A DNA stretch of 64,000 nt. Source: Corynebacterium testudinoris. GTDB lineage: Bacteria > Actinomycetota > Actinomycetes > Mycobacteriales > Mycobacteriaceae. Both the position numbers and the translations under genes were made by a program. The stretch lies in assembly GCF_001021045.1 (NCBI RefSeq), contig NZ_CP011545.1:682001-746000 (forward strand). Direction: 5' to 3'. Below, piece by piece: positions 857 to 60,625 of this stretch; the first letter of the stretch is position 1, and every line of letters begins with the position of its first letter. The notes under the pieces were generated by a model. The model saw nothing but the letters and a program-made list of their open reading frames with translations, searched no databases and had not been told where the DNA came from.

Positions 857-867
857 CGTCGATAAGC
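857..867 (-). repeat. Copy of over-represented 11-mer GCTTATCGACG, extragenic
   Basis: CGTCGATAAGC on the plus strand, 6 nt after the stop of the flavoprotein gene and 6 nt before the terminator palindrome. It is one of 18 copies of the word in the window. Confidence 0.9.
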
Positions 868-872
868 ACAAC

Positions 873-902
873 AAAGGGCATTCCCCGCGGGGAATGCCCT
901 TT
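873..902. terminator. Bidirectional rho-independent terminator
   Basis: A perfect 30-bp palindrome, AAAGGGCATTCCCC and its complement, lies between two convergent genes. A and T flanks on the two sides allow termination in both directions. Confidence 0.9.
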
Positions 903-907
903 AGTGA

Positions 908-2743: not shown

Positions 2744-2835
2744 GTGTGATTCTCTCGGGGGAGAGACAACAACGGATCAACGCCGATGCGGCCCGTCGTG
2801 TCTAACGGTTGGGACTAGTCCATACTACCCAGCAC

Positions 2836-3762
2836 TTAAGAATCGCAGTCCTCGAGGAAGTCGACCGTCGGGATGAAGAAGAGCGTCCCGGTGGCGGCGG
2901 TAGAGAAGTCGAGGATGCGATCGTAGTTGCCGGGAGGGGAGCCGATGAACATGTTATCGAGCATTTTCTCGGTGATAGCAGGATCTTTGGCGTAGCCAAT
3001 GAAGTAGGTGCCAAACTCCTCGGCGGTGACTTCGCCGAAGATCATGTTCTCGCGAACGATCTGGAGGTCATTGCCGTCATCATCGGTGATGGTGTTGGCG
3101 GCGACATGGGAGTTGCTGGGTTTGATGTCATCGGGCAGTTCGATGTCATCGAGCTTGGTGCGGCCAATGACCTTTTCCTGCTCTTCGACGGTCTCGCGGT
3201 TCCACGAGCTGAGGTCGTGGAAGTACTTCTGCACGATGAGGTAGGAACCTCCGGCGAAGTCCGGGTCGGAGGAATCGACGGTCACAGCATCGATGGCGGC
3301 GAGGCCTTCTGGGTTTTCGGTTCCGTCCACGAATCCGAGGAGATCGCGCTCGTCGAAGTACTTGAAAGTGTGGGTTTCGTCTTCGACGGTGACATAGCCG
3401 TCGAGGCGGGCCATGAACTGGCGGGCGAGCTCGAAACACAGGTCGAAGCGCTGGGCGCGGATGTGGAAGATAAGGTCGCCCGGGGTGGAGGGGGCCTGAT
3501 GGATCGCGCCCTCGACGGCCCGGAAGGGGTGGAGGTTGGCGGGACGGGGTCCGTCGAAAAGCTTGTCCCATGCATCGGAACCGATGCCGACGACCGCCGT
3601 GAGGCGGTCTTCCTTCGCGCGGAAGGCGACGGAGCGGATGAGACCGGGGACGTCGGCAAGCAGACTACGGACGGTATCTTCGGAGCCCTCCTTGAGACTG
3701 AGCACGAGGAGGACGGCCGCGCTGGCGGGTGGGACGACGATGGGTTGGGATGTGGTGGTCAT
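2836..3762 (-). CDS. DyP-type heme peroxidase (YfeX-like)
   Basis: 308 residues from the chosen ATG, which has an AGGAG ribosome site 7 nt upstream. An upstream in-frame ATG at 3798 has no such site. The signature GFVDGTENP carries the distal catalytic Asp, and the segment SNSHVAANT carries the likely proximal heme-ligand His. These define a dye-decolourising peroxidase, a cytoplasmic-type heme enzyme that oxidises porphyrins or phenols with H2O2. I see no signal peptide. The neighbouring iron importer is divergent, which suggests but does not prove a shared link to iron or heme. Confidence 0.92.
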   Translation of the reverse strand: MTTTSQPIVVPPASAAVLLVLSLKEGSEDTVRSLLADVPGLIRSVAFRAKEDRLTAVVGIGSDAWDKLFDGPRPANLHPFRAVEGAIHQAPSTPGDLIFHIRAQRFDLCFELARQFMARLDGYVTVEDETHTFKYFDERDLLGFVDGTENPEGLAAIDAVTVDSSDPDFAGGSYLIVQKYFHDLSSWNRETVEEQEKVIGRTKLDDIELPDDIKPSNSHVAANTITDDDGNDLQIVRENMIFGEVTAEEFGTYFIGYAKDPAITEKMLDNMFIGSPPGNYDRILDFSTAATGTLFFIPTVDFLEDCDS

Positions 3763-3935
3763 AGAGGCACTCCTGGGGACGGTAACTTGTGCTTCCACAA
3801 TAGGTCGCGCAAGTGGTCTCGCGGGGGCAAATTCGACCGGGGTAGAAAATTCCGCCCACTCGGGTCTTCCTGGGGGGAAATGCCCGCTCTGCCAGTTGTT
3901 TTTCAGAAAACGGGGTAGGCGGCCGAGGGGGGAAG

Positions 3936-7998: not shown

Positions 7999-8009
7999 GC
8001 TTATCGACG
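7999..8009 (+). repeat. Copy of over-represented 11-mer GCTTATCGACG, extragenic
   Basis: The word begins 7 nt after the ATPase stop codon and abuts the terminator stem. Confidence 0.9.
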
Positions 8010-14736: not shown

Positions 14737-15903
14737 TCAGGCGCCTAACTGGGTAATCCTGCGGGCGGCTTCGGCCAAGGTTGCTGGCTGTTTGCAGAAC
14801 GCGAAACGGACCTTCGTGCGCCACGGTTCGGGGTCGTCGCAGAAGACCTGGACCGGGATGGCGGCCACGCCGATCTGCTGGGGGAGGGCGGTGCAGAATT
14901 CAACGCCATCGCTAAAGCCCAGGGGAGCGATGTCAACCACGGTGAAGTAGGTTCCGGCGGTGGAGGAGACGGGGAAGCCGGCGGTGCGGAGGGCATCGCC
15001 AAGCAAATCCCGGTTGGACTGCAGGCCGCTCACCATGTCCTCAAGCCAGGCGGATTCGTGGTCCAGGGCGTAGTGCACGGCCGGTTGGAACGGGGTGGGG
15101 CCGACGTAGGTCATGAATTGCTTGGCTTTGAGGACGGCGTCGAGAAGCGGGGCGGGGGCGAGGGCCCAGCCGATTTTCCAGCCGGTGACGTTGTAGCTCT
15201 TCGCGGCGGAGGAGACGGTGATGGTGCGGGACCACATGCCCGGCAGAGCGGCGAGGGCGGTGTGCGTGGTGTCATCGAAGACGAGGTTTTCGTAGACCTC
15301 ATCGGACAGCACGAGGAGGTCGTTCTCCACGCAGACAGCGGACAGCTCGGTCAAGACCTCCCGGGAGAATACCGACCCGGTGGGGTTGTGCGGGGAGTTG
15401 ATAATGACCATGGCGGTTCGCGGGGTGATCGCGGCGCGAACGGCGTCGACGTCGACGGTCCAGGTATCACCGGCGGACACCAGGGGGACGGCTACGCGGG
15501 TCGCCCCGGCCAATGCAATGGCGGCGGCGTAGGCGTCGAAGTAGGGCTCGAGGACGATGACCTCGGACCCCGGCTCGACGAGCCCGAGGACGGTAGCGGA
15601 GATCGCCTCGGTGGCGCCGACGGTGACCAATACTTCCGCCTCGGGGTGGTAGGTCACCCCGTAGTCGCGCTGGCGCTGCCGGGCGATCGCGGAACGCAAT
15701 CCCATAAAGCCGCGGCCGGGGCCGTATTGGTTGTTGCCGGAGGAGATCTCCGCGCAGGCGAGTTCGAGCATCGCGGCGGGGCCATCGGAATCCGGGAAGC
15801 CCTGGCCGAGGTTAATAGCGTCGTGGGTGACAGCCAGTTCGGTCATCGTGGCGAAGACGGTTTCCCCGAAGGGCTGCAGGCGGGTGACTTCTCTGCCGCT
15901 CAT
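14737..15903 (-). CDS. Class I/II PLP aminotransferase (DapC/methionine-aminotransferase type)
   Basis: 388 residues. The ATG at 15903 overlaps the upstream stop as ATGA. The open frame continues upstream to 16392, but that part is a shadow of the DUF3239 gene. It has the family start NLGQGFPDSDGP, the PLP-phosphate and substrate region NSPHNPTGSVFS, the DEVYENLVFD segment and the Schiff-base Lys in SSAAKSYNVTGWKIGW. Relatives include N-succinyldiaminopimelate aminotransferase (DapC, lysine and peptidoglycan precursor synthesis) and methionine/kynurenine aminotransferases. The substrate cannot be decided from sequence. The context mirrors the dapC-ercc3 neighbourhood of mycobacteria. Confidence 0.9.
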   Translation of the reverse strand: MSGREVTRLQPFGETVFATMTELAVTHDAINLGQGFPDSDGPAAMLELACAEISSGNNQYGPGRGFMGLRSAIARQRQRDYGVTYHPEAEVLVTVGATEAISATVLGLVEPGSEVIVLEPYFDAYAAAIALAGATRVAVPLVSAGDTWTVDVDAVRAAITPRTAMVIINSPHNPTGSVFSREVLTELSAVCVENDLLVLSDEVYENLVFDDTTHTALAALPGMWSRTITVSSAAKSYNVTGWKIGWALAPAPLLDAVLKAKQFMTYVGPTPFQPAVHYALDHESAWLEDMVSGLQSNRDLLGDALRTAGFPVSSTAGTYFTVVDIAPLGFSDGVEFCTALPQQIGVAAIPVQVFCDDPEPWRTKVRFAFCKQPATLAEAARRITQLGA

Positions 15904-16561: not shown

Positions 16562-18211
16562 CTAATCGAGGTCGTCGGCGTCAATAATGCGGTAGGCGTA
16601 GCCCTGTTCGGCGAGGAAGCGTTGCCGGTGGGCGGCGTATTCGGAGTCGAGGGTGTCCCGGGAGACGACGGAGTAGAAGTGGGCTTCGCCGCCGTCGGCC
16701 TTGGGCCGCAACAATCGGCCCAAGCGTTGGGCCTCTTCCTGCCGGGAGCCGAACGTGCCGGAGACCTGGATGGCCACTGCCGCCTCAGGCAGGTCGATGG
16801 AGAAGTTAGCCACCTTGCTCACCACTAGTACCGAGATGTCGCCGGAGCGGAAGGCATCGAAAAGTTCCTGGCGGCGTTTGGTGGAGGTGCGGCCTTCGAT
16901 GAGCGGGGCATCGAAACGCTCGGACAACTCTTCGAGTTGGTCAAGGTAGGCGCCGATGATGAGCGTCGGCTGCCCGGCATGTCGGTGCAAGAGCTTATCG
17001 ACGACCCGCATCTTCGCCTCCGCGCTCGCCGCCAGGCGGTAGCGGTCCGAGGTCTCGGCCGTGGCATAGGTCATCCGTTCCGCCTCGCTCATCGTCGTCC
17101 GCACTTCGACGCATTCAGCGGTGGCGATGAAGCCCTGGGCTTCGATGTCCTTCCACGGGGCGTCATAACGCTTCGGGCCGATGAGGGAGAAAACGTCGCC
17201 CTCGCGGCCGTCCTCGCGCACGAGGGTGGCGGTGAGGCCGAGACGGCGGCGGGATTGCAGATCGGAGGTCATGCGGAACACGGGCGCGGGGAGAAGGTGG
17301 ACCTCGTCGTAGATGATGAGGCCCCAGTCGCGGGAATCAAAAAGCTCCAGCGCCCGGTATTCGCCCTTCGTTTTGCGGGTGACCACCTGATACGTGGCGA
17401 TGGTCACCGGGCGGATCTCCTTGCGCTCCCCGGAGTATTCGCCGATCTCCTCCGGCGTGAGGGTCGTGCGTCGAAGGAGCTCATCGCGCCATTGGCGGCC
17501 GGCGACGGTGTTGGTGACGAGGATGAGCGTGGTCGCCTGGGCGCGCGCCATCGACGCCGCACCCACCATGGTTTTACCCGCGCCACAGGGCAGCACGACG
17601 ACTCCCGAGCCGCCCTCCCAGAAGGAGTCGGCGGCGTAGCGCTGGTAATCGCGCAGCTCCCACTGCTCATTGGCGGTGGACAAGGCGATGGGGTGGGCCT
17701 CGCCATCGACGTAACCGGCACGATCGTCGGCCGGCCACCCGACCTTGAGCAGTTCCTGCTTCAGCCGCCCACGCTCGGACGGGTGCACGGCGATGGTCTC
17801 CTCGTCGATGCGCTCGCCGAACATGGGCCGGATCTTTTTGTGCCGTTCCAACTCGGCGAGGATCGCCGGCTCGGCCGATTCCAGGACGAGGCCGTGGGCC
17901 GGGTGTTTGTGCAACCGCACGCGACCGTAGCGAGACATCGTCTCAGCGACGTCGATAAGCAGGGCCTGGGGGACAGGGAAGCGCGAGAAACGCTCCAGGA
18001 CGTCGACCACCTGCTCGGCGTCATGCCCCGCGGCGCGCGCATTCCACAGCGCGAGCGGGGTGATGCGGTAGGTGTGCACGTGCTCGGGGGCGCGTTCGAG
18101 CTCAGCGAACGGCGCGAGCGCGGCGCGGGCCTCATCCGCCAGTGGGTGATCAATCTCCAGCAGGACCGTCTTGTCCGATTGCACGATGAGGGGTCCGTCG
18201 CCAAAAGCCAT
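16562..18211 (-). CDS. XPB/ERCC3-type DNA helicase
   Basis: 549 residues from the ATG at 18211 (MAFGDGPLIVQSDKTVLLEIDH, as in relatives). An in-frame ATG 9 nt upstream is also possible. Order: an N-terminal XPB damage-recognition-like domain, helicase domain 1 with Walker A LPCGAGKT (near residue 210) and DEVH box (near 302), the ATLVREDGREG motif, then helicase domain 2 with QRLGRLLRPK. It is a superfamily 2 3'-5' helicase; bacterial XPB is linked to nucleotide-excision-type repair. The upstream helicase-associated gene is a constant neighbour in actinobacteria. Two copies of the 11-mer GCTTATCGACG lie inside. Confidence 0.94.
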   Translation of the reverse strand: MAFGDGPLIVQSDKTVLLEIDHPLADEARAALAPFAELERAPEHVHTYRITPLALWNARAAGHDAEQVVDVLERFSRFPVPQALLIDVAETMSRYGRVRLHKHPAHGLVLESAEPAILAELERHKKIRPMFGERIDEETIAVHPSERGRLKQELLKVGWPADDRAGYVDGEAHPIALSTANEQWELRDYQRYAADSFWEGGSGVVVLPCGAGKTMVGAASMARAQATTLILVTNTVAGRQWRDELLRRTTLTPEEIGEYSGERKEIRPVTIATYQVVTRKTKGEYRALELFDSRDWGLIIYDEVHLLPAPVFRMTSDLQSRRRLGLTATLVREDGREGDVFSLIGPKRYDAPWKDIEAQGFIATAECVEVRTTMSEAERMTYATAETSDRYRLAASAEAKMRVVDKLLHRHAGQPTLIIGAYLDQLEELSERFDAPLIEGRTSTKRRQELFDAFRSGDISVLVVSKVANFSIDLPEAAVAIQVSGTFGSRQEEAQRLGRLLRPKADGGEAHFYSVVSRDTLDSEYAAHRQRFLAEQGYAYRIIDADDLD

Positions 18212-18229: not shown

Positions 18230-20434
18230 TCAGTCCAACAGCACCTCCGTGATGCGGTGGAGCATGAATCGCTGCACGTCACCGGACACTTCATCGAGCG
18301 CGTCGACCTGCCCGCCGCTCACCGTCAGCGGTGTGACCACCCGGTGCACGGCGAGTCCATGCTTATCGACGAACCCGAGCGTCACCGTCCGCCCGCCCCG
18401 CGCCGCCGCCTGCAACACGGCGAGCGTCTTACCGCTCTCGGCGGGTACCTTTTCGGAGCTATCATCCGCCCGGCGGATGGCGGAGACGGCCGCGGCAATC
18501 CGCTCGGCGGGGATCGTCGTCAATCGTTCCGGCGCCGCATCGGGCGTGGGCAGCCGGAGGGGCTTCGGGCGAATATCGAGCGCCGCCCCCGACGCATCCT
18601 CCGCTACCGGCTGGAAACCCGCTCCCCGCAGTGCATCGATGACCCGGACGAGGGGTGCCTGGGAAATGGCGACGGTTGGGGCGATGATCTGCAGCGCGAC
18701 GTCGTCGGCGGCGGGGGTGCGAGCGGCCTCGAGCAGGAGCGCGGGGTCATCGCACCGCACGTAACTCAACGCGGGGCCGCCACGGAGGGTCCCGTGGCGG
18801 CGGGCGACATCATCGATGAGGTAGGTGATGGACTGCGGGACCTCCCCGAGGACGTGGTCCGCGAGCCAGGTCTTCAGCTCCTCCGCCGTGCGGCCGGTAT
18901 CCAAAGCACGGCGGACGGAATGCTCGGTGACCCGGTAGACGCTAGCCAGACCTCCCGAATCGAGATCCCCGAGGAGCTCCATCTCCGCCTGCACGGCGCG
19001 GGGGAGCGGGCCGGGGGCAAGAATCGTCATATCCGCCTGCGCGATGACCCGCTCGACGGTCCCGGGTGTGACATCGGCGGCGACGGCCTCGGCATCGGCA
19101 GTGGGATCGAGCAGGGCGCGAAGCAGGGAGGTGGCGGTGCCCCCGGCTAGGGCTCCGAGCCACCGGGCCTCGGAAAGAATCTCCTCCACGGTGCACGCCG
19201 GCAGGAGAGTCGCGGGGATGGGGTGGGTGTAGAAGAAATCATCGAACATCTCCTCATCACTGATCTCCACCCCCGGGGCAGGCCGAGTGAACTGGGACAA
19301 AATGAGCTGGCGGTGCTCAGGCAGCTGCGGGCGATGAGACTGCTCAGAGAGCAGACGAATGGGAAGCTTCTTCTCATCCTTGTCGCCCACCAGCCAAGGA
19401 GCCCACGGGGAGTCAAGCCAACTGCGCAGGAGAGTGAGCCATTGCGTGCCAAGCTCCGCCTCCAGCCACTCATCGGCCGCCTGCGTAGGACCAAGCCCCT
19501 CCTCGCCCCGGCTCAGCAGCCGGGCGGCCGTGCCCAAGAAAACGAGCCGATTGATGTCGACCTCGGACACCCCGAGCTGGCGGGAGAGGGAGGCCGTGAC
19601 CCGCACACCCACGCCGCCATCCTTGAGAAGTTCCACAGGGTGCTCGCCCAGCACATCCAGCAGTTGGCGCAGGTGGCGGGCGACCTCCAGCCCCGCGCCG
19701 GCGCCGATGGTGTCGGTGCGGTCTTGACCGCGGACGTCGATAAGCGATTCGCCGAGCACCCGAGGTGACGGGACCAGCGGCCGGGCAACGTGGGGACGGC
19801 CGAGGAGAGCGGCGCGAATGCGGCGCGGCAAGCGCACCGTGCCCGCATCGACGCGGGTGAGCAGGCCAGCTGCCAGGAGCTGCGGGATGGGATGAGCGGG
19901 ATCAGCATCCGGGGCGGCATGCTTCGTCGTGCCGACGCCGCCGGAATGCAGCAACGTATCCACAATGGCGCGCTGCTGAGCCGGGAGATCCTCCGGGAGC
20001 GCGGGAGTCTCATTGTCCAACAGCTGCCAATCCTGCGGCAGCGACGGCATGGCCTCGGTGACCAGGAGCAGGGCTTCGGCACTACCGAAGAAGATGGCGA
20101 GGGCGAACAGCCTCTCCGTCGCTTCCCCAACCTGGGCTGGGGTGGCACTCGGGATCCGACGAGTGGCCTCCGCACCCAGCGCCGCGGAGCTGATCGGCTC
20201 CAGCTCCGCCCCGAGCTCAGCGGCCACCTCAACCAGTGCCAACTCCAGCGCCGTGACCGTTCGCAATGCCCGCCCCACTGACGCCCGCAACTGCAAACGC
20301 GCCGCCAAGGGGGTAATCCCTGGGGGGAGCGGCAAGACGACGTCGGGGCGCGCCGCGAGGAGGAAACTCAGCTCATCATCACTGCGCTGAGCCAGCCAGG
20401 TGCGGAAATCGGGGCGATCGGGGGTAGATGTCAT
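18230..20434 (-). CDS. Helicase-associated domain protein, XPB partner
   Basis: 734 residues. I recognise it as the large actinobacterial protein encoded next to XPB (counterpart of Rv0862c). It has an N-terminal FRTWLAQRSDDELSFLLAARPDV motif, a middle region of winged-helix-like repeats and a C-terminal helicase-associated module ending in TVTLGFVDKHGLAVHRVVTPLTVSGGQVDALDEVSG, which resembles the WYL-like fold. There is no Walker motif. It is probably cytoplasmic and works with XPB, but its activity is not known. It is the first gene of a four-gene minus-strand operon and contains two copies of the 11-mer. Confidence 0.85.
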   Translation of the reverse strand: MTSTPDRPDFRTWLAQRSDDELSFLLAARPDVVLPLPPGITPLAARLQLRASVGRALRTVTALELALVEVAAELGAELEPISSAALGAEATRRIPSATPAQVGEATERLFALAIFFGSAEALLLVTEAMPSLPQDWQLLDNETPALPEDLPAQQRAIVDTLLHSGGVGTTKHAAPDADPAHPIPQLLAAGLLTRVDAGTVRLPRRIRAALLGRPHVARPLVPSPRVLGESLIDVRGQDRTDTIGAGAGLEVARHLRQLLDVLGEHPVELLKDGGVGVRVTASLSRQLGVSEVDINRLVFLGTAARLLSRGEEGLGPTQAADEWLEAELGTQWLTLLRSWLDSPWAPWLVGDKDEKKLPIRLLSEQSHRPQLPEHRQLILSQFTRPAPGVEISDEEMFDDFFYTHPIPATLLPACTVEEILSEARWLGALAGGTATSLLRALLDPTADAEAVAADVTPGTVERVIAQADMTILAPGPLPRAVQAEMELLGDLDSGGLASVYRVTEHSVRRALDTGRTAEELKTWLADHVLGEVPQSITYLIDDVARRHGTLRGGPALSYVRCDDPALLLEAARTPAADDVALQIIAPTVAISQAPLVRVIDALRGAGFQPVAEDASGAALDIRPKPLRLPTPDAAPERLTTIPAERIAAAVSAIRRADDSSEKVPAESGKTLAVLQAAARGGRTVTLGFVDKHGLAVHRVVTPLTVSGGQVDALDEVSGDVQRFMLHRITEVLLD

Positions 20435-40129: not shown

Positions 40130-40390
40130 TTAAGCGGTGAGTTCCTCCAGCTTGCGGCGCACGGCCGAGGCTTCGGGGTTGGTGGCGTGCGTGCCGTCGG
40201 AGTACTTGACGGTGGGGACGACGCGATTGCCGTTGTTGACGGATTCGACCCAGGTGGCGGCATCGGCGTCTGCCTCGACGTCGATAAGCTCGTAGGGTGT
40301 GTCCGTCCGGTTGAGGCGGCTGATGAGGTTGTGGCAGTAGGGGCACCAGTCAGTGGCGTAGATGGTGACGTGCGCGGGGTCGGTGGTCAT
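40130..40390 (-). CDS. mrx1: Mycoredoxin 1
   Basis: 86 residues. A glutaredoxin fold with active site TDWCPYCHNL and the mycothiol-binding TVKYSDGTHATNP. Mycoredoxin reduces mixed disulfides between mycothiol and proteins in the cytoplasm, taking the place of glutaredoxin in actinobacteria. The ATG overlaps the folA stop in ATGA, and it is the last gene of thyA-folA-mrx1. One 11-mer copy lies inside. Confidence 0.92.
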   Translation of the reverse strand: MTTDPAHVTIYATDWCPYCHNLISRLNRTDTPYELIDVEADADAATWVESVNNGNRVVPTVKYSDGTHATNPEASAVRRKLEELTA

Positions 40391-42557: not shown

Positions 42558-45500
42558 ATGGCCAAGGACATCCTCCAGCGTTTCCGCCCCCAGGTGGCCA
42601 CCTGGTTCACGGAGGTTTTTGACGCGCCCACCCCGGTCCAGGAGCGCGCGTGGCAGGCGATCGCGGATGGGGACAATGCGCTGGTCGTGGCCCCAACTGG
42701 CTCGGGAAAGACGCTGGCGGCCTTCCTGTGGGCGCTCAATTCCCTCGTGGAAAGACCGGGGCAGACGGCTCTGCCGGTGTCCGACCCGAAGGCCAGTCAT
42801 GGCGGCGTGCGCGTGCTCTACATCTCACCATTGAAGGCCCTCGGTGTGGATGTGGAGAACAATCTGCGGGCCCCGCTGACGGGGATTAGTCGGGTGGCCG
42901 ATCGGCTTGGCCTCGACCTGCCGGATATTTCCGTCGGCGTGCGCTCGGGCGATACCCCGGTGGCGGAGCGGGCCAGGCAGGTGCGCAAGCCCCCGGATAT
43001 CCTCATTACGACGCCGGAGTCGGCGTATCTCATGCTCACTTCCAAAGCGGCGGGCATTTTGAAGACGGTGGACACGGTCATCATCGATGAGATCCACGCG
43101 TTGGCGGGCACGAAGCGGGGCGTCCATCTGTCGTTGACCCTGGAGCGCCTGGCCCGGCTGACGGGTGGTTTCCAACGCATCGGCCTCTCCGCCACTGTGC
43201 GTCCCCTGGAGACCGTGGCTAACTTCCTCGGCGGCGATCGCCCGGTGGAGATCATCGCCCCGCCGGCGGAGAAGCAATGGGAGTTCGACGTCCACGTGGG
43301 CGTGGAGGACATGTCGGATCTGCCGGTACCCGAGATCGGCTCGACGATCGGCGAGGCGACCATCGATGATCCCCTGGGCCTGACGGGTCCGCCGGGGGAG
43401 AGCAGCGAACCGGTCGTTGGTCAGCAACGCTCCATCTGGCCTTTCATCGAGCGTGACGTCTACGAGGACGTGATGGCGCACCGCTCGACGCTGGTCTTTG
43501 TCAATTCCCGGCGTTCCGCCGAGCGCCTGACCAGCAGGCTCAACGAGATTTACGCCGAGATCCACGATCCTGACTCACTGTCCCCGGAGTTGCGGCGTCC
43601 GCCCGCCCAACTCATGGTGCCGTCGCTGCAGGCGGGCAAGGCGCCCCCGGTTATCGCCCGCGCCCACCATGGGTCCGTGTCCAAGGATGAACGCGCCACG
43701 ACGGAACGCCTGCTCAAGGAGGGCGCCCTCAAGGCCGTCGTGTCTACGAGCTCCCTCGAGTTGGGCATCGACATGGGCGCGGTGGATCTGGTCATTCAGG
43801 TGGAGTCGCCGCCGAGCGTGGCGTCTGGCCTGCAGCGCGTCGGCCGCGCCGGGCACTCCGTGGGCGAGGTCAGCCACGGTGCTTTCTATCCCAAGCACCG
43901 CTCGGATCTGCTGCAATCGGCGGTCACTGTGCAGCGCATGCGGGCGGGCCTCATTGAGGAGCTCCACGTGCCCACCTCGCCGTTGGATGTGTTGGCGCAG
44001 CAGACCATCGCGGCGGTCTCGGTCAGTGATTGGGATGTCGAGGAATGGTACGCCACGGTCCGGCGGTCCTGGCCGTACCGCGACCTCTCCCGCGACGTGT
44101 TCGATGCGGTCATTGACCTGGTCAGCGGCGTTTACCCATCGACGGATTTCGCGGAGCTGCGCCCCAAGGTCCACTTCGATCGGATCACCGGCCAGCTGCA
44201 GGCTCGTCCCGGAGCGCAGCGCGTGGCGGTGACCTCCGGGGGCACGATTCCGGATCGGGGCATGTTCGGTGTCTTTCTCCTCGGTGGGGAGGGCGCCCCG
44301 CGCCGGGTGGGGGAGCTGGATGAGGAGATGGTCTACGAGTCCCGGGTCGGTGACGTGTTTACCCTGGGGGCGTCGAGTTGGCGCATCGAGGACATCACCC
44401 GCGATCAGGTCCTGGTCAGCCCCGCGCCGGGGCACACCGGGCGGCTGCCGTTTTGGACGGGCGATGCCGCGGGCCGCCCCTTCGAGTTGGGCGTGGCCCT
44501 GGGCCAGTTCCGCCGCGAGGTCCACACCGATCCCACGATCGCCGATACCCTCGATCTCGACGCGAATGCCCGCACCAACCTCCTCGCCTTCCTCGAAGAG
44601 CAGAACGAGGCGACGGGCATCATCCCAGATGAGAAGACCCTCGTCCTGGAACGATTTAAGGATGAGCTGGGGGATTGGCGCGTCGTCCTGCACACCCCCT
44701 TCGGCCGTCCCGTCAACGCGGCGTGGGCGCTGGCCGTCGGGTCGCGCTTTGACATGGATGTCCAGGCCGTCGCCGGTGATGATGGCATTGTCTTGCGCCT
44801 GCCGGAGGGTGAGTCGGAGCCGGATGCGTCGATGTTTCTTATCGACGCCGAGGATATCGGCGACATCGTCACCGATCAGGTCGGCAATTCCGCCCTGTTT
44901 GCCTCCCGCTTCCGCGAGTGCGCCGCCCGCGCGCTCCTGCTCCCGCGTCGCAATCCCGGCAAGCGGGCGCCGTTGTGGCAGCAGCGTCAGCGCGCGTCCC
45001 AGCTTCTCGACGTCGCGCGCAAGTACCCCAGCTTCCCCATCATCTTGGAGACGGTGCGGGAATGCCTCCAGGATGTCTACGACCTGCCTTCGTTGACCCA
45101 GGTGTGCGCTGACCTGGGTAGTCGCCGGATCCGCATCGCCGAGGTCACCACTGATCAGCCGAGCCCGTTCGCTTCCTCTTTGTTGTTTAACTACACCGGC
45201 GCGTTCATGTACGAGGGCGATAGCCCGCTGGCGGAAAAGCGCGCCGCCGCCCTGGCGTTGGACCCCGGGTTGCTGGCCAAGCTGCTGGGCACCGTTGAAC
45301 TGCGGGAGTTACTCGATCCGGAGATCATCGCGGAGGTTCACGCGCAGTTGCAGCGCTCCGCCGCGGACCGGCGGGCGCGCAGCCCCGAGGAGTTCTACGA
45401 CATCCTTCGGCTGCTCGGCCCCATTCCGACCGATTCTGTGCCGGACAAGGTGACGTTCCCCTGGCCGGCGCCGCTCGATGATCGCGTCATGGAGGTGCGC

Positions 45501-47322: not shown

Positions 47323-48123
47323 GTGCCCGAAGGTGATTCAGTTCTCCAATTATCCCACCGCCTGCAGTTCATGACCGGCCGCGAGGTCGTGGCCTGCTCA
47401 TTGCGAGTGCCGTCGGTGGCGCTGGTTGATTTCTCCGGAGAGACCGTCGATCGGGTGTGGCCCTACGGCAAGCACCTGTTCATGCAGTTCGGCGAGCGGA
47501 TTTTGCACACCCACCTGAAAATGGAGGGCACCTGGGCGATTCACCTGGCCGGTGACCGCTGGCGGAAACCGGGCCACACCGCGCGGGTCGTGCTGGAACT
47601 GGCCGGCGCCCCGCACCCGAGACCCATTGAGGTCGTGGGGCACTCGCTCGGTCTGGTCGAGGTGTTTCCCACAGATCACTACCACGAAAAAATGGGCTAC
47701 CTCGGGCCGGATGTCCTGGCGGAAGAATGGGACCGGGAGGAGGCGTACCGGCGGGTGATGGGGCGGGCGTCGAGAAGCATTGGGACAGCTTTGCTGGACC
47801 AGCAGAACCTGGCCGGAGTGGGCAACGAGTATCGGGCCGAGGCGTGTTTCCTCTGCGGGATTCATCCCGCGACCCCGGTTGGCCAGGTCGACGTCGGGCA
47901 CGTGCTCGACGTGACGCGGCGGATCATGTGGGCGAATCGGGATTCGCCCGTGCGGGTGACCACAGGGGTCAAGCGCGCGGGCGAGAGTTCCTATGTGTTT
48001 GGGCGCAACGGCAAGCCTTGCCGACGGTGCGGCACCCCGATCGAGAAGGCGATGCTGGGCAATGGCCGCGATGAGCTGGAACGGGTCATCTGGTGGTGTC
48101 CGCGCTGCCAACCGGCGGTGTAG
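47323..48123 (+). CDS. nei2: Fpg/Nei-family DNA glycosylase (endonuclease VIII type)
   Basis: 266 residues from a GTG at 47323. The mature N terminus PEGD (catalytic Pro and Glu) follows the start. The helix-two-turn-helix IGTALLDQQNLAGVGNEYRAEACFLCGIHP is present, and a C-terminal zinc finger, CRRCGTPIEKAMLGNGRDELERVIWWCPRC, has four Cys. It removes oxidised bases and cleaves the abasic strand. The last 38 nt overlap the convergent dedA-type gene. Confidence 0.93.
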   Translation: MPEGDSVLQLSHRLQFMTGREVVACSLRVPSVALVDFSGETVDRVWPYGKHLFMQFGERILHTHLKMEGTWAIHLAGDRWRKPGHTARVVLELAGAPHPRPIEVVGHSLGLVEVFPTDHYHEKMGYLGPDVLAEEWDREEAYRRVMGRASRSIGTALLDQQNLAGVGNEYRAEACFLCGIHPATPVGQVDVGHVLDVTRRIMWANRDSPVRVTTGVKRAGESSYVFGRNGKPCRRCGTPIEKAMLGNGRDELERVIWWCPRCQPAV

Positions 48124-49750: not shown

Positions 49751-51231
49751 GCGCCGATCGTCCACGTATGCACGGGCTCGTCCGTCGCCTGATGCTCCAG
49801 GTACAGCCGGAGCATGCTCGCCAGGGCTTCGCGCCGGGCAGGTGAATCCGGGACCGTGCCGCCGGGGTGGATGGCGTCGAGCGTGCGCAACTGCCACATC
49901 GCGCCATTCTGTCGCGTTCGAGCTCGCTCACCGATGATGCCAAGGTAGCGGTCAATGAGATGCTTATCGACGTCGAGTGCCTCCAGCCCGAGCCTCGCCT
50001 GTGGTAGCAGGTGCTCGCTCACCAGCGTGGCGACGTCGATCTTGCCCAATGTCGGCCACGTCATCCGGGCAAACATGCCCGCCCGGGCTCCCACCTGGAA
50101 GTTGGCCTCCGCATCGGCGAAGGTCAGCCGCGACCACACGGGACGCGTCTCCATCGCGAGGTATTTGGCCATCCCGTAATAGAAGGCGGAATCGGCGATG
50201 ATGTCCGACACTGTGGGGCCCGCCGGGAGGAGGCGGTTTTCCACCCGCAGGTGGGCCTTTTCGGTGCCAGGGGCGTAAATCGGCCGGTTCCACCGCCACA
50301 CCGTGCCGTTGTGCAGGTTGAGGTAGTGCAGGGTCGGGCTGCTGTGGGTGGCGGGGGCGTCTGTCGCCTCCTTGTGCTCGGCGATGAGTGGGGAGAAGTA
50401 GCGGACGTTTTCCTCAAAGAGGTCGAACACGCTGGTAATCCACCGCTCCCCAAACCACACCCTGGGGCGCACCCCCTGGTTGACCAACTCCGGGGTCCGC
50501 GTATCAATGGATTGGGTGAACACCGGAATCCGGGACTCGTGCCATACCTTTCGCCCCAGGAACAGCGGGGAATTGGCAGCCAGCGCCACCTGAATGCCCG
50601 CGATAGCCTGCGAGGCGTTCCACGCCGCCGGGAAACGCTCCGGAGCCACCTGCAAGTGCAGCTGCATCGACGTGCACGTCGCCTCGGGGGCGATGTTGAC
50701 GAAATCGAGGCGGCAATACTCCCGATCGGAGACATCAATGTGAATGAGCTCGCCGCGGGTTTCCATGATGGTGTTCCCCAACGCCCGGTAGCGGTTCTCC
50801 GGCGTCATCCACTCCGGGCCCTCAAGCAACTCCCGGGTGACGGTGGGAAGCGTGCCAATCATCGCCACCTGGGCGCCCGCCGCCTTCGCCGCCGCGCGAA
50901 CCTGGTCAAGCCTCGATGCGATGCCATCATGCATCTTCTGCAGGCCGTCACCCTCGACGGACAGTGGGGGATGGTTCATCTCCACATTGAAGGCGCCGAT
51001 CTCCGACTGATACTCCTCATCCAGGTGCGTGAGCACCTGACCATTAACCAGCGCCGGTTGCATGTTGTCATCGACGAGATTGAGCTCTAGCTCCAGGCCG
51101 ATGGTGCCCTTGTTCTCAAACTCCGCGGACTGGAGGTGAGCATCAAAAATCTCCAGGTCAGCCCCGAGGCTCTGGCGGTACCTGGTCCGCTGGCTCGGGG
51201 TGTAATTCTCGGAGGAAATGGCTTCGCCCAT
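49747..51231 (-). CDS. GCS2-type glutamate-cysteine ligase / carboxylate-amine ligase family protein
   Basis: 494 residues. GTIGLELELNLVD, EIGAFNVEMNHPPL, MQLHLQVAPERFPAAWNASQ and HLRVENRLLPAGPTVSDIIADSAFYYG match the GCS2 fold, an ATP-grasp-like ligase with conserved Glu metal ligands. Mycothiol makers do not need glutathione, so a gamma-glutamylcysteine product is unlikely here; the real substrate is unknown. It has no partner operon and contains one 11-mer copy. Confidence 0.85.
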   Translation of the reverse strand: MGEAISSENYTPSQRTRYRQSLGADLEIFDAHLQSAEFENKGTIGLELELNLVDDNMQPALVNGQVLTHLDEEYQSEIGAFNVEMNHPPLSVEGDGLQKMHDGIASRLDQVRAAAKAAGAQVAMIGTLPTVTRELLEGPEWMTPENRYRALGNTIMETRGELIHIDVSDREYCRLDFVNIAPEATCTSMQLHLQVAPERFPAAWNASQAIAGIQVALAANSPLFLGRKVWHESRIPVFTQSIDTRTPELVNQGVRPRVWFGERWITSVFDLFEENVRYFSPLIAEHKEATDAPATHSSPTLHYLNLHNGTVWRWNRPIYAPGTEKAHLRVENRLLPAGPTVSDIIADSAFYYGMAKYLAMETRPVWSRLTFADAEANFQVGARAGMFARMTWPTLGKIDVATLVSEHLLPQARLGLEALDVDKHLIDRYLGIIGERARTRQNGAMWQLRTLDAIHPGGTVPDSPARREALASMLRLYLEHQATDEPVHTWTIGA

Positions 51232-53447: not shown

Positions 53448-53458
53448 GCTTATCGACG
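53448..53458 (+). repeat. Copy of over-represented 11-mer GCTTATCGACG, extragenic
   Basis: The word begins 7 nt after the monooxygenase stop codon and 8 nt before the stop of the convergent chorismate mutase gene. Confidence 0.9.
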
Positions 53459-53831: not shown

Positions 53832-56213
53832 ATGGAATCGCCGTTTACGCCTAGCCCTCAGCGCCCTCAGCCTTCTTCCCAGGATCTCACTCTCGGTCTC
53901 AATGAGCAGCAACGCGCTGCCGTTGAGCACGCGGGTTCCCCGCTTCTTATCGTTGCCGGAGCGGGTTCTGGTAAAACCGCCGTGCTGACCCGCCGCATTG
54001 CCTATTTGATGAGCCAGCGGGGTGTCTCGCCTTTTGAAATCTTAGCCATTACCTTCACCAACAAGGCTGCCGCTGAGATGAAGGAGCGCGTCGCCGCCCT
54101 CGTGGGCCCAGTCGCGGAGCGGATGTGGGTGTCCACGTTCCACTCGGTGTGCGTGCGAATTCTGCGCCAGCAGGCCCAGTTGGTGCCGGGGTTGAACACC
54201 AACTTCACCATCTATGATTCGGATGATTCGCGCCGTCTGCTCAGCATGATCGCTAAGGATCATTCCCTGGATCTCAAGCGTTTCACGGCGCGGGTGTTGG
54301 CCGGTGCGATTTCTAATTTGAAGAATGAGTTGATTGGGCCGGAGGAAGCTATCGCGGATGCGGAGGCGACTCACAATCCCTTCGAGATCACGGTTGCGCA
54401 GGTGTACAAGGATTATCAGCGGCGGCTGCGGTCGGCCAATGCGGTGGACTTCGATGACCTGATCGGTGAGGTCGTGCGGATTTTCACCGAGCATCCGGCG
54501 GTGACGGATTACTACCGGCGTCGCTTCCGCCACGTCCTCATCGATGAATATCAGGACACCAACCACGCGCAGTACATGCTCATCGCCCGGTTGGTTGGGG
54601 ATGGGCCAGATGCCCCGGAATTGTGTGTGGTGGGCGATTCGGATCAGTCGATTTATGCCTTCCGTGGGGCGACGATCCGCAATATCGAGGAGTTTGAGCG
54701 GGATTATCCGCAGGCGCGCACGATTCTGTTGGAGCAGAATTACCGCTCGACCCAGACGATTCTTAATGCCGCGAACTCGGTCATTTCCCGCAATGATGGC
54801 CGCCGGGAGAAGAAGCTGTGGACGGCGCTGGGGAACGGGCAAGAGATCATCGGCTACGTGGCGGACAATGAGCACGATGAGGCGCGGTTTGTCGCCGGGG
54901 AGATTGACGCGATCGTCGATAAGGGAAAGACCTATGCCGATGTGGCGGTGATGTACCGCACGAACAATGCTTCCCGCGCATTGGAGGATATTTTTATCCG
55001 CTCCGGAATTCCTTACAAGGTGGTCGGCGGCACGCGCTTCTATGAGCGCCGTGAGATCCGCGATCTAGTCGCCTACCTGCGGGTCCTGGACAATCCGGAT
55101 GACACGGTGAGTCTGCGGCGCATCATCAATACCCCGCGCCGCGGCATCGGCGACCGGGCGCAGGCCTTCATCGCGTTGCACGCGGAAAACAACAATCAGT
55201 CCTTCGGACAGGCGCTTATCGACGCCGCGGGGGACAAGGTCGACTTCCTTGGTGCGCGTGGGCGCAATGCGGTTGCGAAGTTCAACGAGATGATGGACGC
55301 GGTCCGCGCGGAGATGCCATCGATGACCAACGAGGTCACGGGAATGCCGGATCTCGGTGAGTTGATCAGCCGCGTCCTCGACATCACGGGCTATCGCGGT
55401 GAACTGGAAGCGAGCAATGATCCGCAAGACGGGGCTCGCTTGGACAACCTCAACGAGCTCGTGTCCGTGGCCCGGGAGTTTTCCTCGGAGGCGGCGAACC
55501 AGGTGGCCTATGCCGAGATGGATGGGGATGAATTCGAGCCGGAGGAAGGTGAGGCTCAACCGGGCTCTCTCCAGGCCTTTTTGGAAAAGGTCTCGCTGGT
55601 GGCCGACGCCGACCAGATCCCCGACAATGAACAGGGCGTGGTCACGCTCATGACCCTGCACACTGCCAAGGGCCTGGAGTTTCCCGTCGTGTTCCTCACC
55701 GGATGGGAGGACGGCCAGTTCCCGCACCTGCGCGCCCTCGGGGACCCGAAGGAGCTCGCGGAGGAACGACGCTTGGCTTACGTGGGTATCACTCGTGCCC
55801 GTGAGCAGCTTTACATCACCCGAGCCATGTTGCGCTCCTCCTGGGGCAACTCGGTGACCAACCCGCCGAGCCGTTTCCTGGCGGAAATCCCCCCGGAGCT
55901 CATCGATTGGCGCCGAGAGGAGCCGGAGCATTCCTTCTCCGATTCGTGGGGGATGAGTTCCGGCGGTGGGGGCGGCATGTACGGCTATCAGCGGCCAAGT
56001 GCCCCGAAGAAGAAGCCGGGCCTGCCGAAGGCGTCCCGCAACAACAATCTGGAATTGGCGGTGGGAGACCGGGTCAACCACGACAAATATGGCCTGGGAA
56101 CGGTCATCGCCGCCGACGGCTCGGGTGCCCGTGCCACGGTGACCATCGATTTCGGATCATCCGGCAAGGTGCGCCTCATGCTCATCGGCGGCGTGCCTAT
56201 GGAGAAGCTTTAG
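53832..56213 (+). CDS. uvrD1: UvrD1/PcrA-type DNA helicase
   Basis: 793 residues from the ATG at 53832; the frame is open from 53571. It is superfamily 1A 3'-5' helicase. Walker A is GAGSGKT (near residue 44), followed by LTFTNKAAAEMKERV, Walker B DEYQDTNHAQY, the GDSDQSIYAFRGA motif and VTLMTLHTAKGLEFPVVFLTGWEDGQFPH. The C-terminal tail (DRVNHDKYGLGTVIAADGSGARATVTIDFGSSGKVRLML) is the Tudor-like RNA-polymerase-interacting domain of PcrA/UvrD. It acts in repair and transcription-linked DNA processing. Two copies of the 11-mer family lie inside. Confidence 0.96.
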   Translation: MESPFTPSPQRPQPSSQDLTLGLNEQQRAAVEHAGSPLLIVAGAGSGKTAVLTRRIAYLMSQRGVSPFEILAITFTNKAAAEMKERVAALVGPVAERMWVSTFHSVCVRILRQQAQLVPGLNTNFTIYDSDDSRRLLSMIAKDHSLDLKRFTARVLAGAISNLKNELIGPEEAIADAEATHNPFEITVAQVYKDYQRRLRSANAVDFDDLIGEVVRIFTEHPAVTDYYRRRFRHVLIDEYQDTNHAQYMLIARLVGDGPDAPELCVVGDSDQSIYAFRGATIRNIEEFERDYPQARTILLEQNYRSTQTILNAANSVISRNDGRREKKLWTALGNGQEIIGYVADNEHDEARFVAGEIDAIVDKGKTYADVAVMYRTNNASRALEDIFIRSGIPYKVVGGTRFYERREIRDLVAYLRVLDNPDDTVSLRRIINTPRRGIGDRAQAFIALHAENNNQSFGQALIDAAGDKVDFLGARGRNAVAKFNEMMDAVRAEMPSMTNEVTGMPDLGELISRVLDITGYRGELEASNDPQDGARLDNLNELVSVAREFSSEAANQVAYAEMDGDEFEPEEGEAQPGSLQAFLEKVSLVADADQIPDNEQGVVTLMTLHTAKGLEFPVVFLTGWEDGQFPHLRALGDPKELAEERRLAYVGITRAREQLYITRAMLRSSWGNSVTNPPSRFLAEIPPELIDWRREEPEHSFSDSWGMSSGGGGGMYGYQRPSAPKKKPGLPKASRNNNLELAVGDRVNHDKYGLGTVIAADGSGARATVTIDFGSSGKVRLMLIGGVPMEKL

Positions 56214-57030: not shown

Positions 57031-57075
57031 CTACCTGCAATCCTCCGCAGGATCAACGGATAAATCTGCAGGTAG
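57031..57075 (-). promoter_or_regulatory. Leader hairpin upstream of the M23 gene
   Basis: A perfect 9-bp stem CTACCTGCA/TGCAGGTAG encloses 27 nt with an inner ATCCT/AGGAT stem, 35 nt before the start codon. It is not the ydaO aptamer. It could be a regulatory structure or attenuator. Confidence 0.5.
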
Positions 57076-57260
57076 AGGGGTTTTCGCTACTCGACGCCCT
57101 GGAAAAGCGCAGGTCAGAGCCATGTTTCCTATGTTACTAATGTGACTAAAATTAACTAGTGGTGCACCGGGTTGGGGGTAGAAAAGGAGCTTGCCCGCCC
57201 CAACCGGCGTGAGAAAACCCCACCCAGCAACACCTGGATGGGGTTCACGGATGAAGAACC

Positions 57261-59930
57261 TTACGTCTCCCGATACTCCAACTCCGCGCGGCGGCGATGG
57301 AACAACGAGCCCACCCCAGCGGCCAGGAGCGGGGCTACTACCACCAGCGCGATGATGGGGTACCAGTTGATCTGGAAGAACTGAACATCTCCCAGCCTTT
57401 CAATCTCGCCGGAGAAGTAATTGTGATAATCCGCTTGCAGTGTCAGCCAGGTAAACAGCAGCCCGATGACGCTACCCGTGAGGGTGCCGGCGAGGGTCAG
57501 ACCACCAGCGAAGAGGGCCGTGGCCCGGGAGGGAAGTGAGGGTGAGGCTCCGAGGGCGTCGATAAGCGCGAAGTGACGGCGCGACGTCTGCATCGACAAG
57601 GCCAGGACCAGCGCAACAACCACGACCACGATCAGGGCAAGAATGCCTGCAAGTAGCGGTGCAGTGTACTTCCAGCTAACACCGAACGTTGGAGTAAAGG
57701 TCGCATTGAGCCCGATTGCCGATTCTTTGAGTGAATCGCTTATCTCTGTGCGCTGCTCGTAAGTGAGCTTGTTCAAAGGCATCAACGTGGTGCCCACATA
57801 CTCGTAGTGGAGACCGAGCTGCCCCGCTACCTCGCGCGGAATGATGGTTGCCCCTCCGCCTGCAGGTAAGACCGCCATTGCTGGCAATTGGATGGGCTCG
57901 GCGATGTCACCTGTCAGGAGTTCGAAGGTGGCTGTTCCATCTTCCTCGACGAGAATCGCTTGAGAAGTCGGAATGAGAACCACACCCCGTAATAGAGCGG
58001 TACTCGCTTCTTGCCGAACTGAATCATCAAGGGCAAACATCTCCAGCAAGTCGGGGCCGCCGAAGACTGTGCTTGCCATGCCCGCTCTGAACGGACCCCC
58101 TACCCATCCGCTGTTGGTCAGTGCGGAGCATTTTTCTGACTCTAATTCTTCTGGCCAACGGCAGTCAGGGTACTTAATCGAGAGAGTTGGGTGAGGGTCC
58201 CCAGTGACGAGGGTCATAGGCATGCCGTAAAGGTCTACCTCCTTCGCCGGACCGGTTATCGCTTTGACGCTGTCGAGGGTGCTTTGCAGCTCCTCTTTTT
58301 TGAGTTCCTGAGGCAGGTAACCAGACGACATGATCGTGGCGGTGTCATATTGATATACCTCCGCGGTCTCCGTGAGCTGACGGTTATTCGAGGTCTCAGC
58401 ACTCGTCCACACGGAAACCGCCACAAATGATATCGCCATGATCGCGGCGAGAGCCGGAGCCGTTTTCATCATCTGCCGTCCGGCGTCACGAACGGCGAGC
58501 CGCAGCGTCAGAGGAGCAGTTCGACCGAGTCGGGCGATCAACCATCCCAGCGCCGGTGCCGAAGCAGCTAGTGCAGCAATGACAACTAGCCTGCCAAAGG
58601 ACTCATAAAACATGTACCAGTCAGGGATGAACTCTCGCATCACCCCGAGAAACGCCAGAGTCAGCACAAGAACGACGGGACCAACCGCCATCCACGGTCG
58701 CCAGCGCATCATACGGTCAGGAGCGGCCCCGGCGATGCCGGCGCTTATCGACGCCCGCGATGCCAAAACCGCTGGCAAGAATGCCGCGACGACCGAGCCG
58801 ATCACCGCCGTCACCCAGGCGGCACCAACAATCTGCCACGGGACATTCATCGGCCATCCGGGGTAGCGATACATCCACCAGCCGGTGGCGGTGGCAAGGC
58901 CGATAGCCGCGCCGAGGGTCGCACCAACCAGACCGGCGCCCAGGCCATACGCGAGGACTGCCCAGCGGATCTGACGAGGCGTCGCTCCCTGGGAACTCAT
59001 CAAGGCGAAAACCTTCGTCTGGCGGGACACCGCGATGGTGAACACCGGTGAAATGATGAGGAGGATGAGCATGCCGACCAGCATGATGCTGGGGACCATG
59101 ATGGAGAGGAAGAAATTCAGAGACTGGTCAGGATAGATGGGCTCGAGGCCACGCATCGCCGGATCGAGTTCTTCCTCCGTGGGCGGATTGGCCTTGACAT
59201 CCAAGGAGTTGACCACGAAGCCTGCGGCGTTGAGAGCCTGCACGTCCTCCCAGGTAAACTTCCGATCTCCGGAGATTACCCACGAAATGCCCGAGCCGAA
59301 GCCCTCAAACTCCGTGGAGACCGATTCCGGGGAGAACAAGGTGGGTTGGATGGTCAGGGGCCAGGCGCCCGGCATCGTGCCAGAAATGCGGAGCGGACCG
59401 GAGGCTCCCTCGTGATCGGGAGAAGTGAAGGTGATGGAGTCCCCGACGGAGACTTGTAGTTGGTCCGCGATGCTCGGAGAAATCATGATCTCGCCAGAGG
59501 CGGGCAGGGTGCCGGTGCGCGGTTGCAGGTTATGCGGTAGCGACTCCGCCGGAAGCTGCTGAATCGAGGAATAAACGGTCCGATTGTTGTCGGCCCGAAG
59601 TTCACCCGGGAGGAGGACGCTCAGTTCCGTGCGAAAGCCCGATGGTAGGGCCCGCTCCAGCTCCTCACGCTCATTCCCAGTGCTGGCGGTGCCGGTGCAC
59701 TCAGAGTTAGAGCCAGAGACAGTTTGGACACACGACGCGCCCCCGCCCTTCCACGTCGTGGAATGAACCTCGGTGGCCCGCAGCACGTTGTTTGAAGATG
59801 ACTCGTAAGTGGCCAAAGAGACGATCAGGAATACCGGCAGGGCGACGAGCAACATGGCAGCAAACAAGCGCCAAGGGTGTTTGACCATGTCGCGCCGGGT
59901 AGGTCGGGTGGCGGCTAGGAGGGTGCTCAT
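57261..59930 (-). CDS. ABC transporter permease, FtsX-like, large
   Basis: 889 residues. An N-terminal helix (WRLFAAMLLVALPVFLIVSLA), a large extracytoplasmic domain with a Cys pair (GGASCVQTVSGSNSEC), then four-helix FtsX-type modules at residues about 280-420 and at the C terminus, and a second extracytoplasmic part. It is the membrane part of a MacB-like lipid/peptide exporter or resistance system. The ATPase gene overlaps by 4 nt. Two 11-mer copies are inside. Confidence 0.85.
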   Translation of the reverse strand: MSTLLAATRPTRRDMVKHPWRLFAAMLLVALPVFLIVSLATYESSSNNVLRATEVHSTTWKGGGASCVQTVSGSNSECTGTASTGNEREELERALPSGFRTELSVLLPGELRADNNRTVYSSIQQLPAESLPHNLQPRTGTLPASGEIMISPSIADQLQVSVGDSITFTSPDHEGASGPLRISGTMPGAWPLTIQPTLFSPESVSTEFEGFGSGISWVISGDRKFTWEDVQALNAAGFVVNSLDVKANPPTEEELDPAMRGLEPIYPDQSLNFFLSIMVPSIMLVGMLILLIISPVFTIAVSRQTKVFALMSSQGATPRQIRWAVLAYGLGAGLVGATLGAAIGLATATGWWMYRYPGWPMNVPWQIVGAAWVTAVIGSVVAAFLPAVLASRASISAGIAGAAPDRMMRWRPWMAVGPVVLVLTLAFLGVMREFIPDWYMFYESFGRLVVIAALAASAPALGWLIARLGRTAPLTLRLAVRDAGRQMMKTAPALAAIMAISFVAVSVWTSAETSNNRQLTETAEVYQYDTATIMSSGYLPQELKKEELQSTLDSVKAITGPAKEVDLYGMPMTLVTGDPHPTLSIKYPDCRWPEELESEKCSALTNSGWVGGPFRAGMASTVFGGPDLLEMFALDDSVRQEASTALLRGVVLIPTSQAILVEEDGTATFELLTGDIAEPIQLPAMAVLPAGGGATIIPREVAGQLGLHYEYVGTTLMPLNKLTYEQRTEISDSLKESAIGLNATFTPTFGVSWKYTAPLLAGILALIVVVVVALVLALSMQTSRRHFALIDALGASPSLPSRATALFAGGLTLAGTLTGSVIGLLFTWLTLQADYHNYFSGEIERLGDVQFFQINWYPIIALVVVAPLLAAGVGSLFHRRRAELEYRET

Positions 59931-60625
59931 CGCTGATCATCCTCATCAAAGATCCGCCCGTCGCGCACCATGACAACTCGGTCAGCCCAGCCGGCGAGGC
60001 GCGGCTCGTGGGTCACCAACAGGCCAGCGGCCCCGGAGTCGACGCGCTCGCGCAGGATGCGCAGGACGGCGTCGCCAGTGGTGGTATCCAGGGCGCCGGT
60101 GGGTTCATCGGCAAGCAGCACACGGCGCTCACCGATGAGCGCCCGGGCGATGGCCGCGCGCTGGGCCTGCCCGCCGGAAATCTCATCGGGGAAACGCGCT
60201 GCCAGGCCCTCGAGACCGACCTCGGCCAAAGCGATCTCCGCAGCGTCCCGGCACTGAGCGGGGGAGACCCCGTCCAGTTCGAGGGGAAGCGTCACGTTCT
60301 CGCCGATGGTGAGAGTGGGAACAAGGTTGTAATGCTGGAAGACCAGGCCGATGCGGCTTCGCCGCAGCTGGGCGGACCGGGACGGGGAGAGATCGGCGGC
60401 ATCGGCGCCGTCGATAAGCACCCGACCGGAGGTCGGAGTTTGCAGCAGCCCCGCAACGTTGAGCAACGTGGACTTGCCCGAGCCGGACGGACCCATGACG
60501 GCCACGAGCTCGCCGGGAGACACCGCCAACGACACATCGTCGAGGGCGACGACCTGACGGGGACCCTGCCCGTACACGCAGGAAACGTTCTGGAGCTCAA
60601 TGGGGTAAGGGGACGTGGGTGACAT
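59927..60625 (-). CDS. ABC transporter ATP-binding protein (MacB/LolD type)
   Basis: 232 residues. Walker A MGPSGSGKST, signature EISGGQAQR, Walker B RVLLADEPTGALD and the H-loop in LLVTHEPRL. It powers the FtsX-like permease that follows. The start is preceded by AAGGAGG and sits 3 nt from the padR stop, so the three genes form an operon. Confidence 0.93.
   Translation of the reverse strand: MSPTSPYPIELQNVSCVYGQGPRQVVALDDVSLAVSPGELVAVMGPSGSGKSTLLNVAGLLQTPTSGRVLIDGADAADLSPSRSAQLRRSRIGLVFQHYNLVPTLTIGENVTLPLELDGVSPAQCRDAAEIALAEVGLEGLAARFPDEISGGQAQRAAIARALIGERRVLLADEPTGALDTTTGDAVLRILRERVDSGAAGLLVTHEPRLAGWADRVVMVRDGRIFDEDDQR

Follow-up and report, generated by a model that had tools for sequence, protein, structure and literature searches.

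Results

Occurrence of the word in the window and in the genome

The window analysed here is a stretch of 64,000 nucleotides of the Corynebacterium testudinoris chromosome (positions 682001-746000 of a single contig of 2,721,226 bp, 2.72 Mb; genome G000), and it carries a short word, GCTTATCGACG, in 16 exact copies, eight on each strand. This word tops the list of over-represented 11-mers for the window under an order-4 Markov model, which predicts 0.13 exact copies. With up to one mismatch allowed, 29 matches are found, compared with a mean of 0.90 and a largest value of 4 in 100 dinucleotide shuffles. A first-pass annotation of the window had reported 16 copies and two partial ones in balanced orientation against an expectation of 0.03; all 16 exact copies were recovered in place and the massive excess stands, with the qualification that 0.03 is a figure for uniform base composition. 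The two partial copies are present as one-mismatch forms, TCTTATCGACG at 44837..44847 on the forward strand and CCTTATCGACG at 54914..54924 on the reverse strand. Both have the mismatch at position 1 and lie outside the motif as defined below, the former being probably a decayed or chance copy.

The genome-wide count that the annotation had recommended gave 439 exact copies, 213 forward and 226 reverse (P 0.57), so that the balance of orientation seen in the window holds for the whole chromosome, and the reversed control of the word does not occur in it at all. The wide motif GCTTNYCGAYGNC, which allows for the degeneracy described below, is found 834 times (417 forward and 417 reverse, control 8), corresponding to one site per 3.3 kb or about 307 per Mb. 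The over-representation is therefore confirmed and is stronger than had been stated.

Codon use, orientation and spacing

In 417 predicted genes the form GCTTNTCGACG occurs 108 times, where shuffling of synonymous codons within genes yields 7.6 (maximum of 100 shuffles 14) and a second synonymous shuffle that also keeps the next base yields 9.3 (maximum 16). The main sense phase, G CTT ATC GAC GNC, reads Leu-Ile-Asp and accounts for 67 of the 108 genic copies (2.0 after shuffling), the main antisense phase for 19 (4.8 after shuffling) and the four remaining phases together for 22 (about 0.3 after shuffling). Compared with the first shuffle, every one of the six codon phases is in excess, the rare ones most strongly, and a further 11 copies lie in the 55 kb outside predicted genes. 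The excess thus survives the codon modelling that had been proposed as a refuting test, and the remark that copies sit in differing reading frames extends to every phase.

The origin end of the chromosome can be placed with dnaA at coordinate 1, followed by dnaN, recF and gyrB as judged by length and order, and the position of the terminus is approximate, as the GC skew is noisy. Within the first 46.3% of the chromosome lie 100 of the 213 forward copies (P 0.89), and this absence of a replichore bias agrees with the initial view that the word is unlike Chi or the FtsK-orienting polar sequences (KOPS). The spacing is more regular than random, with a coefficient of variation of 0.73 compared with 0.98 (P 0.0005, first 100 forward copies).

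Extent and degeneracy of the site

Variants were surveyed in 464 kb of the genome, consisting of the window and 20 further stretches, in which the exact word occurs 72 times. Position 5 proved to be free, with A in 72, C in 21, G in 15 and T in 10 copies, and G is tolerated at position 3 (14 copies), with each remaining single-base variant of GCTTATCGACG being present in just 0-3 copies. Four pairs of neighbouring sites lie within 150 bp of each other in this sample, one of them in opposite orientation.

The conservation extends beyond the 11-mer on both sides (one of the 72 exact copies, too close to an end, was omitted from the flank count). Among the 16 exact copies of the window the following base is C in eight and T in five, as had been noticed at first, whereas the more strongly conserved C one base further on (+13) had been overlooked. 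This C is found at 60 of 66 GCTTNTCGACG sites in the main sense phase, 17 of 19 in the main antisense phase, 19 of 22 in the other phases and all 11 non-coding ones. A G directly before GCTTNTCGACG occurs at six main sense sites and one site of the other phases, and at none of the main antisense or of the 11 non-coding sites. The site is accordingly longer than the 11-mer and partly degenerate, (not G)GCTTNTCGACGNC with N mostly A, and is best spelled (not G)GCTTATCGACGYCC, base 5 being free; it is non-palindromic and about 13 bp long. The first-pass definition was correct as far as the exact 11-mer goes and missed the free base 5 and the tolerated G at position 3.

Conservation of the window sites

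For an alignment of orthologous sites we used the relative G013, which is 88.5% identical to the window over 58.6 kb. The window holds 27 sites of the form GC[TG]TNTCGACG, 25 of which can be aligned to G013, the other two lying beyond the compared stretch. Identity over all 11 bases is found at 22 of the 25 sites, compared with 7.9 expected from equally similar flanks (P 7e-9), and the motif is still matched in G013 at 24 of 25, two of the three changes falling on the free base 5. The conservation check that had been suggested thus shows most sites unchanged.

In detail, the exact copies that are the same in G013 are those at 16993..17003, 18361..18371, 34613..34623, 49962..49972, 53448..53458, 55214..55224 and 58743..58753 on the forward strand and at 17950..17960, 24744..24754, 40279..40289, 57557..57567 and 60409..60419 on the reverse strand. 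The forward copy at 7999..8009 reads GCTTTTCGACG in G013 and the reverse copy at 33418..33428 reads GCTTCTCGACG, both changes being at the free base, and the reverse copy at 19735..19745, which reads GCTTAACGACG, is the sole site of the 25 to leave the motif. A further exact copy is located at 857..867 on the reverse strand. Motif variants, by which we mean matches with the free base 5 or with G at position 3, are likewise the same in G013: GCTTCTCGACG at 15138..15148 and 47768..47778 (both reverse) and at 23887..23897 and 45002..45012 (both forward), GCTTGTCGACG at 24478..24488, 27432..27442 and 63160..63170 (forward) and at 24876..24886 (reverse), GCGTTTCGACG at 39951..39961 (reverse) and GCGTATCGACG, with G at position 3, at 23195..23205 (reverse). 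The variant GCTTTTCGACG, differing at the free base, occupies 3552..3562 on the reverse strand.

Distribution in the genus and dialects

Across 242 Corynebacterium genomes the number of exact copies of GCTTATCGACG ranges from 0 to 782, and the wide motif GCTTNYCGAYGNC reaches at least 100 copies in 182 of them (up to 1442). The remaining 60 genomes contain 9-95 copies, with control counts of 1-29. The word is thus, as the proposed comparison with related genomes shows, spread over much of the genus, and a low count of this first spelling can mean that another one is used. The dialect GCTTGCCGATG is present in 133-478 copies in 14 of the 242 genomes, in 13 of which the first word is found at most 13 times and in one 45 times. 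Another dialect, GCTTNACGACG, reaches 671-835 copies in five of 74 genomes searched (G056, G070, G071, G168 and G237). Some other genomes, C. testudinoris among them (95 copies, control 10), show a moderate excess of it, so that the spellings are not wholly exclusive. A third, ATGACGYCGCG, occurs 644 times in G012 (2.03 Mb, control 6), often as TAATGACGYCGCG, and 1-42 times in 71 other genomes searched. In G054 the word is TTNCCGACGYC, as determined from a sample of 116 kb.

The words of C. testudinoris, G056, G012 and G054 emerged unprompted from an unbiased search that allowed two wildcards at most. The same search gave no strong word in G007, G011, G043, G103, G132, G231 and G232, and weak words around CGACG in G103, G231, G132 and G007. 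In G011, which lacks the main word, a palindrome, CCGGATCCGG, is over-represented (12 copies compared with 0.7 in 100 kb), a pattern resembling that of the highly iterated palindrome HIP1.

The word states were placed on a tree built from a helicase gene of the neighbourhood in 51 genomes, G036 having been dropped (one of 52 loci, with no helicase on its stretch). The four states require 9 changes on this tree compared with 24.6 after shuffling, which indicates that the dialects follow descent and that there are several separate word-less branches; the long branch of G071 is unreliable, and G012 was scored as word-less despite its own word. Word-less G043 adjoins word-rich G024 (support 88/86), and word-less G232 adjoins word-rich G040 (100/98).

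Outside the genus, 185 sampled genomes from 30 other genera of the family contain 9-166 copies of the wide pattern. The ratio to the reversed control has a median of 2.2 and a maximum of 7.4 in these genera, compared with a median of 46 in the 182 carriers. In 14 of the 185 genomes GCTTNYCGAYGNC occurs at four to seven times the reversed control, among them G320, G333, G356, G386 and G395 of genus g23 and G294, G338 and G391 of genus g5, an excess that may reflect codon use or a weak related word. The corynephages BFK20, phi674 and part of P1201 (135 kb) contain no GCTTNYCGAYGNC and one exact word, as expected by chance of unselected DNA.

Competence and pilus genes

Competence genes, for which the first-pass annotation had recommended a search, are present in the C. 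testudinoris genome. At 2.03 Mb ComEA (216 amino acids, with SLBB and helix-hairpin-helix domains) is found together with ComEC (546 amino acids). A Tad locus at 0.26 Mb encodes Ssd, TadA, two T2SSF proteins, a small Flp-like protein (DUF4244), an Rv3654c-like protein and a TadE-like protein, the last being a weak match below the family cut-off. In Micrococcus luteus, which is also an actinobacterium, transformation is described as being served by TadA proteins and ComEA in the accessible part of PMC6667448.

In G014, G091 and G229 ComEC matched at two separate places; G229 carries 659 copies of the wide word despite this. The ComEC match of G124 contains an in-frame TGA, and G186 (90% complete) has no ComEC match.

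ComEA and TadA were surveyed in 80 chosen genomes, 40 word-carrying and 40 word-less. The ComEA match of G107 falls into two parts within one frame, and at the GC-rich tad locus of G056 gene calling was too noisy for use. A loss of mycolic-acid synthesis was considered as a cause of the word-less state and rejected, as a thioesterase match is present in 79 of the 80 genomes, among carriers and word-less ones alike. It sits in an open frame of 1167-1826 amino acids, which from its size we take to be Pks13-like, and G124 alone lacks it.

A separate repeat family

Apart from the word, the sequences ATTCTAGAGAA/TTCTAGAGAAT occur in 17 copies in the 464 kb of C. testudinoris, most of them in inverted pairs with a distance of about 60 bp and with gacctgcgg...ccgcaggtc-like flanking sequence, and they constitute a family of interspersed inverted-repeat elements. 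One member lies in the window at 39476-39546; others are found in stretch L040 at 1800-1870 and 3104-3175, in L044 at 3691-3761, in L046 at 3908-3978, in L049 at 10695-10765 and in L050 at 8787-8857.

Discussion

The word is probably an uptake signal sequence with dialects, the uptake itself, the receptor and the resulting drive being what we infer from its pattern. Of the three explanations put forward in the first-pass annotation, this one fits best because the word is non-palindromic and about 13 bp long, lies equally on both strands and in every codon phase, is conserved between orthologous sites and forms clade-specific dialects, and because the genome also holds ComEA, ComEC and a Tad pilus locus. 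A strict HIP1-like word fails since the sequence is not a palindrome, and of the third explanation, a nucleoid or modification protein site, the nucleoid part is kept below as a rival. According to the favoured explanation, the natural transformation machinery would include a DNA receptor on the cell surface that prefers double-stranded DNA containing (not G)GCTTATCGACGNC. This receptor might reside on the Tad-type pilus or be ComEA, with ComEC as the putative inner-membrane channel. DNA bearing the word would more frequently enter the cell and be integrated into the chromosome by recombination, and such a preference would cause copies born by mutation to spread and to be kept on both strands in any frame that the protein tolerates. 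If the specificity of the receptor shifted in a lineage the favoured spelling would shift with it, giving rise to dialects, and if the uptake bias were lost the copies would decay.

Several observations weigh against this explanation. The competence and pilus genes do not predict the word, because they are present in word-less genomes as well: ComEC is found in 241 of the 242 genomes and is ruled out as a discriminator, and TadA and ComEA-like matches were obtained in 80 of 80 surveyed genomes. ComEA is also ruled out as a discriminator: many word-less genomes give a weak ComEA match, but so do G056 and G071, which are rich in the word, and in G129, likewise word-rich, the match is partial (a frame of 121 amino acids). 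TadA is suggestive in this respect, with an E value of 1.4e-49 or better in 40 of 40 word carriers and 12 of 40 word-less genomes, yet confounded by phylogeny; those genomes with a weak TadA that the tree includes (G007, G049 and G072) are close relatives, and the difference may be due to descent alone. In addition, word-less G043 and G232 keep flp-, TadE- and TadG-like genes, and among the known parts none stands out as the receptor. Close inverted pairs of the word are rare in the 464 kb, though such pairs are common, if not defining, for known uptake words. Among the papers listed by literature searches, made in a collection that covers few subscription papers, none described natural transformation in Corynebacterium. 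Finally, the conservation, the dialects and the even spacing would also suit a protein that organises the chromosome. The papers listed gave no description of the word in Corynebacterium either, and one motif-finding paper that names the genus is, in its accessible part, concerned with CRISPR repeats (PMC5217627).

The main rival explanation is that the word is the site of a protein that organises the chromosome or is associated with the nucleoid, or another word of the HIP1 kind; within the cell it would be bound at intervals of about 3 kb, with selection maintaining the sites. We regard this as rather unlikely, even though it would account for the even spacing, the orthologous conservation, the genus-wide occurrence and the equal use of both strands. 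The word is missing in G043 and G232 beside word-rich lineages and is thus dispensable, its spelling switches between clades, and typical nucleoid proteins are not known to have sites that are so long and so intolerant of mismatches. No candidate protein came to light, although no search was aimed at one. A polar word like Chi or KOPS, guiding a translocase, or a nuclease that acts in recombination, on its way along the chromosome, would also be non-palindromic and present in many copies. With dnaA at coordinate 1, however, the forward copies are evenly spread, and this uniform orientation along the chromosome disfavours such a word and makes it improbable.

It is also conceivable, if quite improbable, that the word is a mark of self by which a defence or DNA-degradation system spares the cell's own DNA. 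The dialects between species and the absence of the wide motif from the three corynephage stretches would suit such a mark, but chance alone would leave phage DNA without the word, neither the even spacing nor the loss in neighbouring lineages is predicted, and we know of no defence system that uses a word of 11-13 bp. It is hardly credible, in our view, that the word arises as a by-product, whether of codon or dipeptide use or of biased mutation or gene conversion. The concentration of genic copies in one phase (67 of 108, Leu-Ile-Asp) points in that direction, whereas codon or dipeptide bias is refuted by the synonymous shuffles, which yield just 7.6-9.3 copies with the rare phases most enriched; the same motif is found in the 11 non-coding copies, the dialects differ at positions that are otherwise conserved, and a mutational bias would have to act on about 13 bp.

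If the word is indeed an uptake signal sequence, most Corynebacterium species, probably among them the industrially used C. glutamicum, can be transformed naturally or could be until recently, and they select DNA of their own kind by means of the word. Uptake words would then have arisen independently under a different outer membrane and pilus, the question of why bacteria choose DNA would become testable by comparison, and species that resist transformation would become directly accessible to genetic tools. If the word does not serve uptake, a 13-bp word every 3 kb or so in 182 of 242 genomes still calls for an explanation.

Comparison with known systems

HIP1 of cyanobacteria is a palindromic octamer that is very frequent in genes and whose use has long been unexplained; the Corynebacterium word shares the high frequency in genes but is neither palindromic nor 8 bp long. 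Chi and KOPS are likewise frequent, non-palindromic words, which are shorter and are skewed along the direction of replication, unlike the word described here, which has no skew along the replichore. The pilus of Neisseria is a type IV pilus, whereas C. testudinoris has a Tad-type pilus locus; a further difference from the Neisseriaceae is that close inverted pairs are rare and that uptake is here predicted from sequence patterns.

The DNA uptake sequences (DUS) of the Neisseriaceae, as described in the accessible part of PMC3630211, form eight dialects with a conserved core that follow phylogeny, with five genomes showing no obvious DUS and one having two dialects at about equal frequency. 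The pilin ComP is described as the DUS receptor (PMC3868556, accessible part). The Corynebacterium word resembles DUS in being short and present in many copies, in the commonness of intragenic sites, in its phylogeny-following dialects, which share a partly conserved core, and in the existence of word-less members, but differs in its letters and its number, 834 in 2.72 Mb compared with 943-5918 per genome (PMC3630211). It shares with the uptake signal sequence (USS) of the Pasteurellaceae, which directs DNA uptake there, the character of a frequent short motif, but the word is unrelated and at about 307 per Mb is less dense than the USS of Haemophilus with about 1000 per Mb (PMC7811141). Strong uptake preferences are known, according to the accessible part of the same source, from two families, the Pasteurellaceae and the Neisseriaceae. 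We consider the chances to be even that Corynebacterium provides the first uptake specificity beyond these families and the first in Gram-positive bacteria, genus-wide, with dialects acting as species barriers, and working across a mycolic-acid outer membrane by means of a Tad-type pilus.

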